Notes under the pieces: model-generated
What the model was told of the DNA's origin: nothing
The model's input: only the letters and a program-made list of their open reading frames with translations
Databases searched by the model: none
Position numbers and translations under genes: made by a program
Shown here: positions 7,286 to 62,817 of the stretch, piece after piece
Numbering within the stretch: the stretch's first letter is position 1
Layout of the letters: each line of letters begins with the position of its first letter
Assembly: GCF_032854445.1 (NCBI RefSeq)
Contig: NC_088304.1
Location: forward strand, 13,343,704-13,407,703
Reading direction: 5' to 3'
Source of the DNA: Liolophura sinensis
Lineage: Eukaryota > Mollusca > Polyplacophora > Chitonida > Chitonidae
Length of the DNA: 64,000 nucleotides

Positions 7286-10200
7286 CTGAAAATGAAAAAA
7301 GAGCTAAAAACGTCAGAACATATTCATGAACTGATCAAAAACAGTGTGAATGACTAAAGCACACATGAGGTAATTTTGAACCAACAGGTGATCTGACCTT
7401 TGACCTTGACTTTAAATGCAAAAACACTAAACTCATGCATGTGGCCGATGAATACATGCATATTAAAGACTCACAGCATACTGAGTAAAACCAGAACTGC
7501 GGCAGAGAAAGACCATTAGACATTGTCCTCGACAGTTATATTTTTTCTTCCTTTTTTTAAAATTTTTGGCAATCGACTAAAATGCTTTAAGAACATCGAA
7601 GTCTATATTGATCTGTTAGAACCCAGAGGGTATATTGACGTCTCATCGGTGCTTTTTGCTTAATACGGTTTCGTTTTCAATGTTCATTCCGCGAATGCAT
7701 TCATAGTTCTAACTGAAGATGCATTTTGAATGCTAAACTCTGTCAGTCTATGTGTCTAAGTTTCAAAAAACCTGACGTGACGTGACATTATCGTGGAAAA
7801 CGGCTACTGAAAAATCCAAAGTTTCGCAAACATTTTAACCAGTTGAAAAAAATGAATACTGACTTCATTTCTTGCAGAAATAGTCAAAAGTCGTGGTAAT
7901 GCTTGACTGAATTGTTCATGTGACATAGCACCCACGCAAGAGTATGGGCATTTTTTGTTGCTTTTTAATGTTTTTGATTTTATTTATTTATTCATTTATT
8001 TATTTGAATGGTGTGCCGTACTCAAGAATATTTCACTTATACGACGCCGGCCAGGGGTACGGTGGGAGGAAACTGGGCAGAGGGAGAGCCCGGGAAAACC
8101 CACGACCATCCGCAGGTTGCTGCCTGACCTTCCCACGTACGGCCGGTGAGGAAGCCAGCCTGAGCTGGACTTGAACTCACAGCGACCGCATTGGTGAGAT
8201 GCACCTGGGTCATTACGCTGCGCTAGCGCGCTGTTTTTGATTTTAAGTTCAGATACATAAATATTTACTACGTAAATACATGAATACGGCACTTTGATAT
8301 TGTTGGCAAATAGCTACTCAGGACTGGTGAAAGGACGGCCTCTTATCAGTCTACCCCCTTTAACGTCGCACTTGACAATTTTTCAGTGATATTATGACGA
8401 GGAGTCAATATATATATCGGATGGGCATAAAAAAATGGGCCGTACTTTGACACTCAATATCTCCGAAACCCTCTTACGTCAGCTTCTAAAAATTTACACA
8501 CTCAAAAGACATTATGTCCTAAGTATACAGACTGCATTTCAATTTCATCCTTATAGATTTCCGTTCAGGGAACCAAAATCAAAATAGAGTCAAAAACGCA
8601 TGTTCCAGACATTTCAAAATGATGTTCTACCTTGTTTTACTTGAAAAGGTGATCAACTGGTCCTACATCTTCTCGGTAGACTGCACGCAAACGTTTCTTC
8701 CACGAACTGAAAGAGTCCGCAATCTCCTTAAGAGTATTTTTTTCCAGCAGTCCTTGATGCGCTCTTTTAGTTCATCCTCAGTGAATTTTTCCGTGCGACC
8801 CTCATGACACCTGACAGGTGATGCAATGTGGGTCACCGGAACGTGCGTTTTTGAGGCTATGTTTTCATTTTAACCCCGTGTACAGAATTCTCAAGGTATG
8901 ACCTTGAAAATTGGTCAGTATATTAACAAAATCATGGTTTAAAGGGTTTGTAATAAAGTACGGCCCATTTTTTATGCCCACCCGATATAGACCGCGTCTT
9001 CCTGTGGCATGCCGCCAAAGTGCTGCCATAATTTATTTCAGTTACGGTTTTATTCCAACTATTCACGTAAATGCTTAAATAGTATATGTAGCAACTCATA
9101 CAGCCCCTTGCGCCATACCTTTATACAGGATTAGGTAAATAAATATGCATTTATGTTAATTGTAATATTTTAGACGTCACTTGTCTAAAATTACTCAAAT
9201 TTCACTCAAAATAAACAATTTCATGAAAACAATGCAAATGGACTAGGCCTTGGGCACGCATGCTTCACCAGCAGAAGATCTGTATAGCGACATACCGTCA
9301 AAGGATCCTCGAATCACCCAGTTGGGACCGATAGCCGTGAACCCTGGAGCGAAAACGCGCTGCACCATCTCTCTCACACGTCCGTTATTTAAGCTGTCCA
9401 GAAATTCTTCCATAAGCCCTGCGACAGCCGAGTCCCAATCTGCCAGTGAAGATTTGAGAACAAATAAAATATATACTTTACGAATGTCACCACAGTAGAA
9501 CGTAGAGTGAAGTATTATTGTTGTCTTGGTCATTGTTGGGCCTTGGTTTTTATTCTGTACGAGAGATATAAAGATGCATGTTCACAGAAAAGAACCGATT
9601 GTTTATCCCTGTCTTTATACTCTTTTATTGTACAGTAACATGACATTTTCATCTCCTGAATTAAATTCATTGCTTGTTCCTTCATCTTGGAGGCAGCCGT
9701 GCTTTTTTGTTTATGAAGATCATTTGATTCTTTGCGGTTTTTGATTGACTGTTTTTCTAACAACTTAAATCAAGTTTAGGGGGCACACGTGACCGAGGTG
9801 GTTATCGTTTTAGCAATTATCCAGGAGAACTCTCCTCACCAAAGCGGCCGCTGTGAGTTCAAGTCCAGCTCATGCTGGCTTCCTCTCCGGCCGTACGTGA
9901 GAGGGTCTGTCAGCAACGTGCGAATGCTTGCGGGTTTCTGCTATTTTCGGGCTTTGTCTGCTTTTCTGTCACTACAATGCTGGCCGCCGTTGTATAAGTG
10001 AAATATTCTTGAGTGCGGCGTAAAACACCAATTAAATCAAATAAATTAATAAATACATTAAATTTATATATGTCTGGCACCAGGTTTGCGAAAAAACATG
10101 CAAACATATTTTAGCAAAGGTCAAACAACTAATTCACGCGAATTTGAAAGTAAATGTTCGCCAGTGTACGCTACGTTTTGCTGGCTAACGACTTGTATGG

Positions 10201-20943: not shown

Positions 20944-21679
20944 TGCTTCCAGCATGAAGCATCCGTTGTTTCACCGGTTACCTCCGCAACTACCCATTCC
21001 TATTAAACAAATAATAAATATCTTTTTCATAGTTCTATGAAACTAACTGTGGATCTTTGTCAAAGTTTACATTACCCAAGTTCACTTAGATCATGTTCAG
21101 CTTTCTCAAATACAAAGAATAATATCAGCTTAATTCTTCTACAGTTCAACAATTGTAACGGTTAAAAATATCTTTACGATATACAGAATTGTGTTTTTTT
21201 TTTAATATAAGATATTTTTTGAAAATACAAAAAGTTAGTCTGCCTTATCTGGAATATTTTTATGGCACTGAAACAAATTGCAATACAAAAATATAGCACT
21301 AGTCAGTGTGCATCTGTTAATCTCATTTACAAAAATTCCAACATACGACAGCACATCATGAACGGGACAAAAGTCCTCGAGATATTCTGTTAGTGGAGTT
21401 AAAGAACAAATCAACACAGCATCAGTTTGTCCTCTCCGTTATTAAAGCCGTAAGGTGTTTGTGTCTGTTATACAAGGATGCCTTCACGTATGACACAATT
21501 GTATACGATTCCGTTAATGATCGTCACAATAAAACTGCTCATGTGGAACTTGTGCAAACCTGTGCTACTCCCAATAGTTGGCGTGTACAAGTAATCCCAC
21601 TATTTAGCATTATATATTGCAATATATAACCGTAAAAATGTATTAAACATACGGGTGACTCTTTTGGGGGGGATATATT

Positions 21680-22110
21680 ACCAAAAATATACGTCATTTT
21701 ATCAGAACTTTTGAAATGGCAACACAGAGGTGTATAAGTGTGTTACACATGTGACCATAGGCAATTCAACATCAACAAAAAAACACATTGGTTTACCACA
21801 AAAATACTGTTTCTTCACCAGAGGAATACCCTTATTTACCACAAAAACGGGTTATTTTATCAAGAGCTGTTGTAATGGCAACATACAGCGTGTAAAAGTG
21901 TGCACTGGAATGTAAATAGGCATTTCAACATCGAAAATTAGAATACATCCCATTTACCACAAAACAAATTGTTTTTCTTTACCACGGGATTACACTTATT
22001 TTACCACAAGACAAACAGGTTGTTTTATCTCAGCTGTTGTAATAATAATGCGCAGAGTGTACAGCTATGTACTGGAATACACGTATTTACCCAAAACATA
22101 TACGTAGACA
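21680..22110 (+). repeat. About 160-bp degenerate tandem repeat, three copies
   Basis: Each unit has TTTTATCA..GCTGTTGTAATGGCAACA-like text, a GTGTACTGGAAT end and TTTACCACAAAA. Starts fall near 21694, 21850 and 22018. Confidence 0.7.
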
Positions 22111-22812
22111 TAATTACAACACTGTGGGAGAATGAGTAACCTATCGGAAGATGAAATAGCACCATTAGTATACCGACTACACATTACACAGGAATAAGCT
22201 GCAATAAGGCACATCTTACATGTTACACGTGACTGAACATCTGAAACTACGTAAACAATGACTCACGTCATCTAATTTCGCATTAGTGTTTTTGTTGTGC
22301 GACACTCACAAAAAAATCTAAACATGTTAAACGTGTTATACTTTCACTTACAGATAAAAAAAAAACAAACATCAAAAGTGTTCTAGCGTTTGTATCAAAT
22401 TCAAAGCACTGGATATTCAAACAGCGTATCCACACAAAAATAAACAAAAATAAAGGAGAGGCACTAACAATGACATAAAGTGTTCACAAGACTTCAAACT
22501 TAGCCAACAAATTAGGCTACTCTTGGACACGATAATCGTTCGCTGAGTTCATGAACTTGGTGGGATATGAACAAATAATCGACTGGTAATCCTTATTTGG
22601 CAAATAGCAAAGAAAACAAACACAGAACAGGTGGACGTATCAGATAATCCTCTAATCTCAGGCTTGGGCTACTTTCGCACCAGTTTTGTCCACACGCTCC
22701 TAGACCCCTTTTTGTCAAGTCGCCAGTAAACGAACGGCACAATTATAACAGGCAAGTGCGGAAATTCCCCTCCACAAACTGTTGACATAAAGGAATCGTA
22801 TGCGTATGGACT

Positions 22813-22888
22813 TAACCTACACAATAACCTACACAATAACCTACACAATAACCTACACTATAACCTACACTATAACCTACACTATAAC
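22813..22888 (+). repeat. 12-bp minisatellite
   Basis: Six units of AACCTACACAAT, the later ones AACCTACACTAT. It lies about 350 bp beyond the stop of the 600-aa gene, possibly in its 3'UTR. Confidence 0.93.
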
Positions 22889-23227
22889 AAGAGTAAAATC
22901 AAGGTATAGTGCCGAGCGCCGAGGAATGGACACTACTGACGTTTTGAAAACAAAACAACAGGACTGACCTGAAAAGCTGTAACTATCAGAGAAAATGGAC
23001 CACACAGCAGATGTAAACCCAACACGAGCTGACGTGAGCTCAGTAAAGCTTTCCATAGCAAATTTTGACAAAAGTATGTGTAATACAGTAAAGCCTGAGA
23101 TTCTTGGTTCACTCGAGATTTCCATGTTCCTATCTCGATCACACAAACCATCGCCGACATATCGTCCATACATCCAAATTCACAAACACATGGCGTCTCA
23201 TTTAACAACATTAAAAAGTCTCAGTTT

Positions 23228-25030
23228 TCAATGGCAGGATAATGCAGGCAAAACTAGGGTATTGTTTGCGGCAGCAATACCACTTGCCAGTACACCATTT
23301 GGTACTTCAGAATCAGTAGAGTCTTTCGAGGACGGAGGACGATTGGATGTCGATATCTCCTTATTTGTGGGGCGTTCGCGGTGAGAATCATCACTAGGTT
23401 CGTTATCTTTCACAACAATCTCATGACACGGTAACTGTTTAACAAGGCCCTTAGTTTTTTTCGCTGCTGAGTTCTGCTCCAGAGGGTCATTCGGACGAGA
23501 GTCTGTCTCTGTGTCAGTACCAGCTGAGACTTTGGCAGAAGCCGCTGCTGTCGGTGGGTTGTTGTCATCGTCAACGACGGTCAGGCTAAACTTCCGTCGC
23601 ACGTTGGGACCTTTCGATGAAGGTTTACGAGGAATCTCAACATATTTGCCAGAGAATGGTCTAATCGGGGACGAACGAGGACTTCTGGTTTTCGGCGGGT
23701 TTGTCTTGGAATCAGCGACAGCATCTTCAAATGTAACGTTCAACGCTTTTGTTTTTCCAGAGCTTCGTAGCCTTGACCGTGGAGTCCTATCACCCGGTCC
23801 TTCTGGAGTGGAACTCTCTGACGAAGAACAGGTCGAGGTCTGGGAACTGGGCCTCTGAGAATCATCTTTCAATTTGACGTCGTTAACCAGGACGATCGGT
23901 GACAACGTCTCTGGTGAGGACTGGCGATTTGGACAGGAGGTACTTCCGTCATCTCCGGGGCCGAGAAGAGCCTGGGACTCCTCCAAATGAGTTTCCTCGG
24001 CGGTGGGATGCGGAGACTCACGATGATTCTCCACTTCAGCCTTAACAATAGAGCGGTTAGCGGCCTTTGAATCCAAGAGATCATCAGCACTTCTGAACGG
24101 TTTCTTGCGCATCTCGGTACTGGTAGAGCTTTGAGGTCTTCCCGTCGAATTCCGAGTGCGAGGGGATGATCGAGGTGACCTTGGGTACATCACAGAGTTC
24201 ATTGCGGGCGACAGACTGTTTTTGTTTTTAAATCGTTTCACTTCTTCAGCGACGGTACCTAGGAGATTGCGATCTTGACTGAAGTCCGGTACAGAAGATC
24301 CTCGAGCTTGACGCATGGTCTTCCAGATATCGCGTGGTTTCACCATCGTCCCAGCGTCTTTCGTTTCGGACATGGTGGACACGTCGCTCATCATGGTGGT
24401 CACCGTGTTGTATGGGTTGTACCCGCTTGTCTGAACGGTGGAGTAGGCGTTGTATCCCGATCCCACCGTAGAATAAGCGTTGTACCCTGAGGTGACAGTG
24501 GAGTACGCATTATATCCGGAGCCTATCGAGGAGAGGTAATCCTTATGACTCTCCGGTTCTACACGGAACAGGGGTTTTCCGTCCTCTATGTATAAATCCC
24601 TATCTTTGATGACGTCCGCTTTGACCCGGTTACAACACTTGATGCATACAAACGTAACGATGAAGAAGCCGGCCAGTACGGGGATAATGGCCAGATTTAA
24701 GGGCATATCTTTGCCCCCAGTGGAACTATCACTTCCGTTCGTATGGGTAGAGCTGTTATTCACTTTGAATATATAATTGGTCTGAGGCGCCGGAGAACTC
24801 TCGTTGTCCTTCCTATCAATTTCACTTGAGGGTAAGATTTTCAAACCTGCCTCTTCCACGGAAATGTTGTTCTTTCCGCCAGATAAGTAAACGTTATCTC
24901 TCTCGGTGATCTTATCGGGATCCGCCCGGGTTGGAGGGCTCCCTGTAGGAGACGTGGCTGCGTCTGCGAAAGGGAGTAACAGAACCATAGAGAATAGGGG
25001 TACAAATCTGTTCAGAAGACAAGAATCCAT
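23228..25030 (-). CDS. Unrecognised type I single-pass membrane protein, 600 aa
   Basis: One open frame of 600 codons with no internal intron; the stop TGA is at 23230-23228. Residues 1-24 form a signal peptide (FVPLFSMVLLLPFADA). The short ectodomain (about 25-109) has Asn-glycosylation sequons near 55, 76, 91/92 and 98 and no cysteines. A membrane span (about 111-130, LNLAIIPVLAGFFIVTFVCI) is followed by a basic stop-transfer KCCNRVK. The cytoplasmic part opens with four tandem tyrosine repeats at 171-210 (three SGYNAYSTV and one SGYNPYNTV). YSTV fits a YxxPhi sorting signal, and the tyrosines could also be kinase or SH2 sites. The remainder is Ser/Pro/Arg-rich and probably disordered (SPRSSPRTRNS, TRSPRSSPIR). 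Upstream, 25031-25119 looks like 5'UTR after an acceptor TTTCTGTTTACAG. I do not recognise the family; the layout suggests an adaptor-type receptor, which is inference. Length, composition and topology all argue that the frame is real. Confidence 0.85.
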   Translation of the reverse strand: MDSCLLNRFVPLFSMVLLLPFADAATSPTGSPPTRADPDKITERDNVYLSGGKNNISVEEAGLKILPSSEIDRKDNESSPAPQTNYIFKVNNSSTHTNGSDSSTGGKDMPLNLAIIPVLAGFFIVTFVCIKCCNRVKADVIKDRDLYIEDGKPLFRVEPESHKDYLSSIGSGYNAYSTVTSGYNAYSTVGSGYNAYSTVQTSGYNPYNTVTTMMSDVSTMSETKDAGTMVKPRDIWKTMRQARGSSVPDFSQDRNLLGTVAEEVKRFKNKNSLSPAMNSVMYPRSPRSSPRTRNSTGRPQSSTSTEMRKKPFRSADDLLDSKAANRSIVKAEVENHRESPHPTAEETHLEESQALLGPGDDGSTSCPNRQSSPETLSPIVLVNDVKLKDDSQRPSSQTSTCSSSESSTPEGPGDRTPRSRLRSSGKTKALNVTFEDAVADSKTNPPKTRSPRSSPIRPFSGKYVEIPRKPSSKGPNVRRKFSLTVVDDDNNPPTAAASAKVSAGTDTETDSRPNDPLEQNSAAKKTKGLVKQLPCHEIVVKDNEPSDDSHRERPTNKEISTSNRPPSSKDSTDSEVPNGVLASGIAAANNTLVLPALSCH

Positions 25031-25119
25031 TTTTTGACTCTTCTCTTTAAGAAACCGTTAAAAATTCCCTGCAGATGAGTCCACCAATTTAAGTCTCGTC
25101 CAACCAGGAAGTGAGACAC
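25031..25119 (-). other. Probable 5'UTR segment of the membrane-protein exon
   Basis: A pyrimidine-rich acceptor (TTTTTCTGTTTACAG) ends at 25120 on the minus strand, 89 bases before the ATG of the 600-aa frame. The exon probably begins here, with a further non-coding first exon at higher coordinates that I could not identify. Confidence 0.45.
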
Positions 25120-26543
25120 CTGTAAACAGAAAAATTATCTTTCTGTTAAAGCGTGCATGGACAAGGTTCCCTAAGGAGATCTTTTATCTTTTAAGCACAA
25201 AACAGGTCATTACCGTCATACATGGTTGAGATGCAACAGTCGATCATCTACATTATAGCACGTCGTATTATAACCGTCCTGCTCCCTAACCAATAAAGTT
25301 AAGCCGACGATCATATTACCTTCGCATTCTGAACAAGACGTATAAATTAACACATGGGATCATCCCACGACCAATTACAATACCAGTTTGTTGAATAGAG
25401 AGCGACCACATAAAAGCCAATTTGAGACGTCAAAAACGTCAGAAAAATGCTTCATTAACGACCTCGGAAGTTAAAAGTGGAATAGGTTTCTGGTAACATA
25501 CAGATTGTTCAGTGTCAAGTGTAATATTGTTTAGTGTAATATTGTTCAGTGTAATATTGACTCCTCGACATGTTTAAAGCATGATTCCAATTTTAGGTTT
25601 AATATCAAAAACCTAAAGTTTGTATCATGGGTTTGACGAACAGTCCAATTCTGCAGCACACTGGTTGACCCTGAAAGGTGTACTCAAGAAAACAATTTTC
25701 AGTGTATCAATTTCTTTTGGACACACACAGCCCTTAAAATTCAATCGTTTATCACATAACAGACATATCTTTTCCCTTTTCACTGGTCAGCCTATAACAG
25801 GTACAGCAGGCATGGTATACTGCCACACTCTGTCGAGATGTGTAGCTCACGGAATGTTACAAGACTTTCTTGGACACACTTTTTGCTGTCAGCCCTTATT
25901 TATCAAACGTCTGAAGTCTTTTACAATTAAAGTGGTTTGCTCTAGAGCTTTAAATTTGTACACTGATTCTTAAAGCAGAATTATGTACAAACCACAATCT
26001 GAGATCTCGCTCTGTCCTAACTTAAGTTTTAAGCTGACAGACAGACAGATATAATATTATTGGCGTTCCATTCATTGGAATGATTCACGCCAAAGCAATA
26101 CAACAGCATCAATTACAGTTCATGGGAAAAGACACAAAAGGTAGTCACACAAAAAAACAGTCCATAACAACAGCACACAAACGCAAATGGACTAAACCAG
26201 AAACATGCAGAGTGGAATTCTGTTCATGCAAAACAATAATAAAACACACCATTTTACACGAGTAGCATTTCATGAATAAAAGAAAATGAAACAAGATTTC
26301 AGCTCATGACAACAGGCACAAGTAGATTAACCCAACACCAGATTCCATACACGGTCTACGGAATCTGTGCTTAAGCCGGTAACGTGCAAAAAAGTGTTCC
26401 AAGCATTTGGAAGCTACACTGTCAGTTGCCACAGGTTTTGATTTCTTTTTTTTTTTTTTTTACTTGTTTAGTTTTAGTTTTAAGTTACTTGAAAACATAT
26501 GAGCCCTTGTATACAGTGCGTTCATACTGCGGCAAGAATATTC
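25120..26543. other. Probable 5' intron of the membrane-protein gene; no exon seen
   Basis: Upstream of the acceptor at 25120. A 117-codon open frame on plus (25620-25973) has no domain and is probably chance. Confidence 0.4.
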
Positions 26544-34221: not shown

Positions 34222-35417
34222 CTGTACAAGTAACATCAGCGTGAATTTGAATGTAATACATCGGAAATGATGCGCCAGCTAATCAGAATCGATTCAGCAC
34301 ACCCTTAATCATATAAAACTCACAGCAGACAAACAACATTTGTTGCCGAAATTAGATTTACACACCCCGATTCATGATTTGGATTATCAGTTACCTGCAG
34401 AAAATGTTGCCCGTTTTTTGAAGACTGGGCGACGAAACACGATCAATCAAAAGATTTTTCTGGAACAAATGTTGTCTGTGTGCGCAGGGCTGAAAATGAC
34501 CGTCCAAGCAATACAAATAAACGCATGCTGCCGAATGGGAATACAGTAATTAATAAACAGAAGTAAGAACGTTTGTGCGATTTGAACTAAAAGTGAATAA
34601 ATTTATTTCGTTCATCAGCGTGTTCAGTTAATCTCGAAGAAAAGTTTCTAGTTCCACGGTTAACTTCAATTACTCGGAAGACCTTTGTTCGATGGATGGT
34701 TCCTGGGTAACAACTTCCTCGCACAATACCTTATCTGAGAGCAGATTCGTGGGAAACTCATACCCACGGTGTAATAAAATATTAAACATGAAAGAAGGGG
34801 CTCCTTGAGGTCAGTGGGTTTCGCGGTAAATAACCAGCTGTAACAATGATCTCCTGAATGTCGCTCGTAATTACGAACATTCGCAGACTTGGTGGCTGCA
34901 GAGTTTCGCACCCACACACTGTTTGACCTGGACTGCAGTGTACTTCCTATTAAAGAAAATGAAAATGGGTTAAACAGGTATATTTATAGGAATGTTATAC
35001 TGCTAGATGTCATCAAATAAGTCATCAGTCAGTTTATGTCGATTTTACATTGCCTGACGTTACGAATTCATCAATATGGTACGTCATTAATACTCTGGCC
35101 TATTCATGACCTACTCACACAATTGTAGGCTACTTCTGTCTCCATAAGTCCATTGGCTCTTTCTGCTTATATATGTTACATCACACTTGTTTAAGCACCT
35201 TTTATCCTAACATGAGATTTAGCGTCCTAAATCATGCATACAAGCTGTACTTTAATACAGTAGCTTTTATGCCAGTGCGATATATTTGCTTAATTCATGT
35301 GGACACACCGCTATAAATGGTGGTAATAAGTAACACTAATATACGTCATGACTAACTTACCGTGTTGTTGTTGGATCCCTGTTGGAGTGTTTACCCACCA
35401 ACTGCTATACAACGAGA

Positions 35418-35607
35418 TTTATTTATTTATTTATTTATTTATTTGATTGGTGTTTTACGCCGTACTCAAGAATATTTCACTTATACGACGGCGGCCAGCA
35501 TTATGGTGGGTGGAAACCGGGCAGAGCCCGGGGGAAACCCACGACCATCCGCAGGTTGCTGCCAGACCTTCCCACTTACGGCCGGAGAGGAAGCCAGCAT
35601 GAGCTGG
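35418..35607 (-). mobile_element. SINE A copy without tRNA head, 14-bp target duplication
   Basis: The tail and full core end cleanly at CCAGCATGAGCTGG. GCTATACAACGAGA occurs at 35404-35417 and 35608-35621. The copy therefore inserted already lacking the tRNA-like head. Confidence 0.95.
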
Positions 35608-35649
35608 GCTATACAACGAGAAGGCTGATCATAAACGGCCCATCCACAA

Positions 35650-42539: not shown

Positions 42540-43830
42540 TCTGTTTGTCTGCATGGCGAAGGTCGTAGGTTTCTCTGCATGGCGAAGGTTGGAGGTTTAT
42601 TTGCTTGACGAAGATCTGTGGTTTACTTCAGACTGTCTTGGCGAAGGTCGGAGATTTGTCTGCATGGCGAAGGTCGGTGGTTTGTATGCTTGGCGAAGGT
42701 CGGAGGTTTGTCTGCATGGAGACCGTCGGCGGTTTGTCTGCTTGTTGAAGGTCGGAGGTTTGTCTGCATGTCGAAGATCGAAGGTTTGTCTGCTTGGCGA
42801 AAGTCGGTGGTTTGTCTTCTTGGCGAAGGTCTAACGTTTGTCTGCTTGGCGAAGGTTGGAGGTTTATTTGCTTGACGAAGATCTGTGGTTTACTTCAGAC
42901 TGTCTTGGCGAAGGTCGGAGATTTGTCTGCATGGCGAAGGTCGGTGGTTTGTATGCTTGGCGAAGGTCGGAGGTTTGTCTGCATGGAGACTGTCGGCGGT
43001 TTGTCTGCTTGGTGAAGGTCGGAGGTTTGTCTGCATGTCGAAGATCGAAGGTTTGTCTGCTTGGCGAAAGTCGGTGGTTTGTCTTCTTGGCAAAGGTCGA
43101 AGGTTTGTCTGCTTGGTGAAGGCCGGAGGTTTCTCTGCATGCCGAAGGCCGGTGGTTTTTATGCTTGGTGAAAGTCGGTGGTTTGTCTGCTTGGCGAAGG
43201 TGGAAGGTTTTTCTGCTTGTTGAAGGCCGGAGGTTTGTCTGTATGTCAAAGATCGAAGGTTTGTCTGCATGTCGAAGGTCGGTGGTTTTTCTGCTTGGTG
43301 AAAGTCGGTGGTTTGCTTGGCGAAGGCCGGAGGTTTGTCTGCATGGCGAAGGTCGAAGGTTTGTCTGCATTGTGACGGTCGGTGCTTTGTCTGCTTGGTG
43401 AAAGTCGGTAGTTTGTCTCCTTGGCAAAGGTCGGAGGTTTGTCTGCTTGTCGAAGGTCGGAGGTTTGTCTGCTTGGCGAAGGTCGGAGGTTTGTCTGCTT
43501 GGCGAAGTTCGGAGGTTTGTCTGCATGGTGAAGGTCGAAGGTTTGTCTGCATGGCGAAGGTCGGTGGTTTGTCTGCTTGGCAGATGTCGAAAGTTTGTCT
43601 GCTTGGCGAAGGTCGGAGGTTTGTCTGCTTGGCGAAGTTCGGAGGTTTGTCTGCATGGTGAAGGTCGAAGGTTTGTCTGCATGGCGAAGGTCGGTGGTTT
43701 GTCTCCTTGGCAGATGTCGAAAGTTTGTCTGCTTGGCGAAGGTCGGAGGTTTGTCTGCTTGGCGAAGGTCGGAGGTTTGTCTGCTTGGCAAAGGTCGGAG
43801 GTTTATCTGCTTGGTGAAGATCTGTGGTTT
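42540..43830 (+). repeat. 26-bp minisatellite with higher-order repeats
   Basis: About fifty units close to GAAGGTCGGAGGTTTGTCTG-CTTGGC. A 267-bp block (42589 onward) is repeated at 42856, and a 130-bp block of five units (at 43501) is repeated at 43631. Long open frames occur on both strands (up to 272 codons on minus) because three units make a 78-base cycle. The right end runs into a SINE A tail. Confidence 0.94.

Positions 43831-56861: not shown

Positions 56862-62817
<5,956 letters not shown>

Follow-up and report, generated by a model that had tools for sequence, protein, structure and literature searches.

The locus considered here raises two linked questions: whether a long open frame in the chiton Liolophura sinensis encodes a genuine membrane protein of no known family, and what the four tyrosine-containing repeats in its predicted tail might do. 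The frame lies in a stretch of 64,000 nucleotides of contig NC_088304.1 (forward-strand positions 13,343,704 to 13,407,703), referred to below as the window, whose numbering is used throughout. A sequence-only reading had placed an undescribed protein of 600 amino acids on the minus strand at 23228-25030, and these coordinates are confirmed.

Open frame, gene model and protein layout

The length of the frame is beyond chance. It spans 609 codons, compared with a longest frame of 349 codons among 80 random sequences; the longest frame averaged 174 codons (maximum 232) for 40 copies of the window generated by an order-2 Markov model and 241 codons (maximum 349) in 40 sequences with the composition of the ORF itself. 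The start codon sits in a good context (A at -3, G at +4), and ten codons upstream of it the frame is closed by a TAA. The locus at 23228-25030 is very probably a real protein-coding gene. The open frame and the layout of its product, both observed directly, comprise the following features outside the repeats.

23228..25030, minus strand: coding sequence, 600 amino acids and stop (ORF call and length beyond chance)
25119..25121, minus strand: splice acceptor-like site, ...TTTTTCTGTTTACAG followed by G, with exon start at 25119 (consensus only, 11 of 15 pyrimidines)
24959..25030, minus strand: signal-peptide-like N terminus, residues 1-24, MDSCLLNRFVPLFSMVLLLPFADA (sequence and hydropathy)
24704..24958, minus strand: polar ectodomain, approximately residues 25-109, about 85 residues (composition, taken over residues 25-106, and sequons)
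24641..24703, minus strand: membrane span, approximately residues 110-130 (hydropathy)
24632..24646, minus strand: CIKCC, residues 129-133, cysteine cluster where the span ends on the inner side and a candidate for palmitoylation (sequence)
23231..24400, minus strand: long polar tail, residues 211-600, 390 residues (composition: S, P, T and charged residues)

The acceptor-like site points to a 5' UTR intron, in which case the exon would start at 25119. No AATAAA or ATTAAA is present within about 2 kb past the stop, the nearest being at 21206. The transcript ends of the gene are not fixed because of this acceptor-like site and the distance to a polyadenylation-type signal. The earlier description as a single exon is accurate for the open frame, but a 5' UTR intron would speak against it for the transcript.

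The N terminus is hydrophobic and ends in ADA followed by A, which places alanine at -3 and -1 of a putative cleavage site after residue 24. Residues 25-109 contain no cysteines and five N-glycosylation sequons (N55, N76, N91, N92 and N98), and the hydropathy of the span peaks at 2.45 (19-residue window, residues 112-130). The signal peptide, the cysteine-free, glycosylatable ectodomain and the single span that had been proposed are thus borne out by sequence, hydropathy and sequon count, and the predicted arrangement is a type I topology with the tail on the cytoplasmic side. Cysteines 129, 132 and 133 adjoin the span as a CxxCC cluster, and CIKCC is probably palmitoylated. The tail also contains an additional YxxPhi-type site, YVEI (Y463), and a dileucine-type ESQALL at residue 351. 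The tail had been called disordered, a description that, by composition only, fits residues 213-600; in the charge-hydropathy comparison these residues and the ectodomain are on the disordered side, whereas residues 129-170 and the repeat segment (residues 171-212) cross the line by a small margin into the folded region.

Tyrosine repeats and selection on their codons

The translation contains three copies of SGYNAYSTV and one of SGYNPYNTV, just as had been reported (all identified from sequence).

24494..24520, minus strand: repeat 1, SGYNAYSTV, residues 171-179
24464..24490, minus strand: repeat 2, SGYNAYSTV, residues 181-189
24434..24460, minus strand: repeat 3, SGYNAYSTV, residues 191-199
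24401..24427, minus strand: repeat 4, SGYNPYNTV, residues 202-210

Seven residues of the nine-residue unit are identical across all four copies, and all nine are identical across three. Within residues 129-600, repeated words reach a length of 10 residues, compared with a maximum of 6 in 1000 shuffles, and this part of the protein has 12 tyrosines, 8 of them within residues 171-212. Each unit supplies two tyrosines, one in YNAY and one in YSTV (YNPY and YNTV in repeat 4), and neighbouring YxxV sites are spaced by 6, 6 and 7 residues. The first repeat begins about 40 residues past the span and the first YSTV is about 46 residues from it, so that the phrase "next to the membrane" in the sequence-only reading was loose.

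The strongest result of the analysis is the codon-position selection test on the three identical repeats. Third positions vary in all nine codons while none of the 18 first and second positions does (P ~2e-7 by placement of the variable sites, with sites treated as independent). The pairwise base differences among these copies are 9, 6 and 7, with no amino acid change, and at least 13 changes are needed among them, all silent. In simulations of random substitution with an equal number of changes, the identical peptide was retained in 0, 21 and 4 of 200,000 trials. Repeat 4 has two residue differences from the others (A to P and S to N), and its first- and second-position differences are confined to those two codons and a silent TCN/AGC serine switch. 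A 45-bp minisatellite in the window serves as a contrast, the variation among 16 of its units over the nine codons compared being distributed 0/5/4 across the codon positions. Conservation of the repeat unit at the protein level is therefore observed directly between copies inside the gene: the peptide was kept while the DNA changed. Since the differences between copies are silent, the array is probably old, with its peptide kept, and the same silent-only pattern argues for translation of the frame.

Two other accounts of the frame have to be weighed against this evidence. The frame could be the last exon of a larger receptor, in which case the apparent signal peptide would be a translated polypyrimidine tract, the true exon would start at 24963 (phase 1) and the ectodomain exons would lie upstream. 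Among the acceptor-like sites listed for 22000-25200, the strongest (13 of 15 pyrimidines) does sit at 24963, the end of the signal peptide. However, the 83 other acceptor-like sites provide 249 frames, 31 of them with a suitably placed in-frame ATG, and none contains an equally hydrophobic ATG-led stretch; 3 of the 249 reach a 12-mer hydropathy of 2.0. Because none of these frames is equally hydrophobic, a signal peptide is favoured over an acceptor at 24963, and the good start context and in-frame upstream stop also disfavour the larger receptor. C-terminal exons of thioredoxin reductase lie upstream of the gene on the same strand (56865-62817, minus), with a reading that ends TVTGC-TGA-G; its GC-TGA-G, at 56865-56876, is the selenocysteine end typical of that family, and the exons were recognised by peptides of the family as well as by Pfam. 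The thioredoxin reductase end at 56865 therefore leaves the membrane protein gene no more than about 32 kb on its 5' side. The Pfam scan of 25-64 kb covered 12 of the 102 minus-strand frames of at least 60 amino acids (in batches of two and ten) and yielded, above the cut-off or otherwise, only two thioredoxin reductase exons and a sub-cut-off minisatellite match. We consider the larger receptor, whose ectodomain could be encoded in small upstream exons, to be improbable. A non-coding or decaying frame, which would agree with the lack of a relative in the collections searched (Pfam, PDB and viral contigs) and of a nearby AATAAA or ATTAAA past the stop, is scarcely credible given the length of the frame and the exclusively silent differences between its repeats.

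Possible roles of the tyrosine array

The reading that we tentatively prefer, with confidence slightly below even, is that of a membrane-anchored scaffold whose phosphorylated YSTV/YNTV array docks SH2 proteins cooperatively. The short glycosylatable ectodomain and the span would place the protein at the surface, and palmitoylated CIKCC would concentrate it in ordered membrane. The repeat tyrosines, most likely Y176, Y186, Y196 and Y207 (YSTV/YNTV), would then be substrates of a Src-type kinase. Once phosphorylated, the four evenly spaced sites would be bound cooperatively by SH2 proteins (Csk- or SHP2-like, or tandem-SH2), which would set the level of kinase activity nearby or seed a cluster. 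The topology, palmitoylation, phosphorylation, binding partners and output of this scaffold are inferred. Cooperative SH2 docking would explain why several evenly spaced, near-identical sites have been kept, and the silent-only codon changes, the clustering of the tail tyrosines and the regular YxxV spacing are all in its favour.

The motif content of the tail is mixed in this respect. Three of the four repeats (YSTV) match Y[TAS]x[MIVL], a Csk-type preference; nothing was found in the literature linking YSSV to Csk and SH2. Residues 129-600 contain no match to the patterns used here for ITAM, ITIM, ITSM, Grb2, PI3K, Nck, Crk and NPxY sites. The ITAM consensus, YxxI/L-x6-8-YxxI/L, has no match there (three if V is allowed), nor does ITIM, [IVLS]xYxx[ILV], or ITSM, TxYxx[VI]. 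The lack of a match to any of these eight patterns counts against docking, as do the conserved S, G, N and T positions and first tyrosine (YNAY), all superfluous for a bare YxxV, the slightly folded-side placement of the repeat and juxtamembrane segments, and the equally good match of the sites to YxxPhi sorting. The earlier suggestion of a multivalent phosphotyrosine or endocytic signal is a reasonable guess, and either half of it may be right: YxxPhi is matched in all four repeats, and YSTV, close to the YSSV of SCIMP, is present in three.

YxxPhi sorting cargo has Y-x-x-bulky hydrophobic on the cytoplasmic side. It is possible, though rather unlikely, that the array is such a signal, with four unphosphorylated motifs (YSTV three times and YNTV) that bind the mu subunits of AP-2 or other adaptors and lead to fast endocytosis or endolysosomal delivery. 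The pattern Y[^P]x[LIMFV] is matched by all four repeats and by Y463, and the dileucine-type ESQALL is found further along the tail. Sorting and docking fit this pattern equally well, but the extra conservation is less well explained by sorting: a single YxxPhi generally suffices, with Y and Phi its sole requirements, whereas the repeats, unlike cargo, retain far more than the pattern, and the distance of the first site from the span is a further point against sorting. If the repeats do form a sorting array, it is an unusually strict one. Alternatively, the tyrosines could act as stickers, as in FUS-type G/S/Y/N-rich segments, such that the tails self-associate without phosphorylation. The unit is rich in S, G, Y and N and both tyrosines of every unit are kept, but in sticker regions spacing and composition are usually free to vary, so that the unit and its STV would not be expected to stay strictly the same, and we regard this reading as improbable.

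Comparison with known systems helps to place the preferred docking scaffold. The best-known transmembrane phosphotyrosine scaffolds are those of vertebrates (LAT, PAG and nephrin); this kind of mechanism is already known, and it is the tandem dual-tyrosine build that appears unusual. In ITAM receptors, such as CD3 and FcR gamma, the motif spacing is 6-8 residues, and the 6-7 residues between YxxPhi sites fall inside this range, but V replaces I/L, there are four sites and the consensus is not matched. In layout, rather than by any sequence relationship found, the protein resembles the palmitoylated transmembrane adaptors (PAG/Cbp, SCIMP, LAT and NTAL), which likewise have one span, an inner-face cysteine cluster and a long multi-tyrosine tail. 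According to a review, these adaptors have a short outside part of a few amino acids, one span and a long tail with several tyrosines, and most have a juxtamembrane palmitoylation motif (PMC4861716). The single span and the long tail with several tyrosines are present in the chiton protein, but its outside part differs: led by a predicted signal peptide, glycosylatable and about 85 residues long without that peptide, it exceeds the few residues described in that review, a further point against docking. It also differs from the adaptors in its tandem near-identical repeats and in having no Grb2-type YxN in residues 129-600. The SCIMP Y96 peptide contains YSSV (PMC5253658), which the repeat YSTV resembles, and Cbp/PAG1 is retained in rafts via palmitoylation and binds the SH2 domain of Csk (PMC3968143). 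Nephrin has three phosphotyrosines (YDEV, YDEV and YDQV) whose binding to Nck can cluster a membrane protein (PMC4238058). The likeness lies in several YxxV sites in a flexible tail; the nephrin sites, however, are YDEV/YDQV and unevenly spaced, and nephrin has Ig-like domains outside.

A bolder proposal, which we consider unlikely, is that the protein is an invertebrate adaptor independent of the vertebrate ones, in which tandem YNAYSTV dual-tyrosine units would form a counted, evenly spaced phosphotyrosine ladder at ordered membrane for cooperative SH2 recruitment. If true, this lineage built a phosphotyrosine scaffold by tandem repetition of one unit, with the peptide fixed while every third position changed, and the protein would be a simple natural system for asking how site number and spacing set signalling.

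Relatives, copy number and neighbouring features

The earlier statement that no family comes to mind is upheld by database searches. A Pfam profile search with the protein found no families at E up to 1, and a sequence search of the PDB found no plausible relative, its one match (E 0.87, a pentatricopeptide-type protein) being taken as chance. Among viral contigs, none of 11 candidate stretches was confirmed as a relative. In the 609-Mb genome of the species, the whole protein matched only its own gene (12 candidates scored). A 103-amino-acid juxtamembrane and repeat piece gave 22 matches at E up to 10 (38 candidates scored), of which 21 were weak (best E 0.22), none besides the gene itself being under E 0.2. 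In the cluster at 9872 kb of contig C1, the one locus read (L014) is a minisatellite and was rejected as a paralogue. The pattern GYNxYxTV occurs at eight places in the genome, four of them in this gene; the other four were rejected as relatives because their open frames are just 42-57 codons and the reversed pattern is equally frequent (four places). The gene thus very probably encodes a real membrane protein, present in a single copy and assignable to no known family, with a tyrosine array kept by selection. "Orphan" here means without a known family in its own genome, Pfam, the PDB and the viral contigs; it does not mean without orthologues.

In the literature, the string YNAYSTV occurs in none of 5.39 million open papers, nothing was found on lophotrochozoan orphan genes, and no title among the matches listed was on point for transmembrane adaptors or ITAM in invertebrates or molluscs. 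On ITAM-type signalling in mollusc hemocytes, the one paper found concerns worm CED-1.

Several other features of the window were noted. Of the three thioredoxin reductase exons given to Pfam, two match: Pyr_redox_2 at E 2.8e-4 (below the curated cut-off) and Pyr_redox_dim at E 3.9e-6 (above it). Eight further open frames gave one bacterial match below the cut-off and seven without any, and Rfam and ARAGORN found nothing over the window. The 45-bp minisatellite (57979-58713) lies between thioredoxin reductase exons and is open on both strands; it reads as a KR-punctuated peptide repeat that could pass for a neuropeptide precursor, and its variation extends beyond third positions. A 26-bp minisatellite at 42543-43830 has about 49 copies and is open in several frames. 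An exon-like open frame on the minus strand at 9246-9581 (SSLADWDSAVAGLMEEFLDSLNNGRVREMVQRVFAPGFTAIGPNW...) is without a Pfam match. A dispersed repeat of about 200 bp (e.g., 35401-35640) gives 36 rows when searched by blastn against the window, with the query itself among them; some rows are pieces of one copy. Elsewhere in the same genome, contig C99 contains seven COX1 matches about 15.5 kb apart, compared with one in contig C632 (15,209 bases), and C99 presumably consists of copies of the mitochondrial genome concatenated in assembly.
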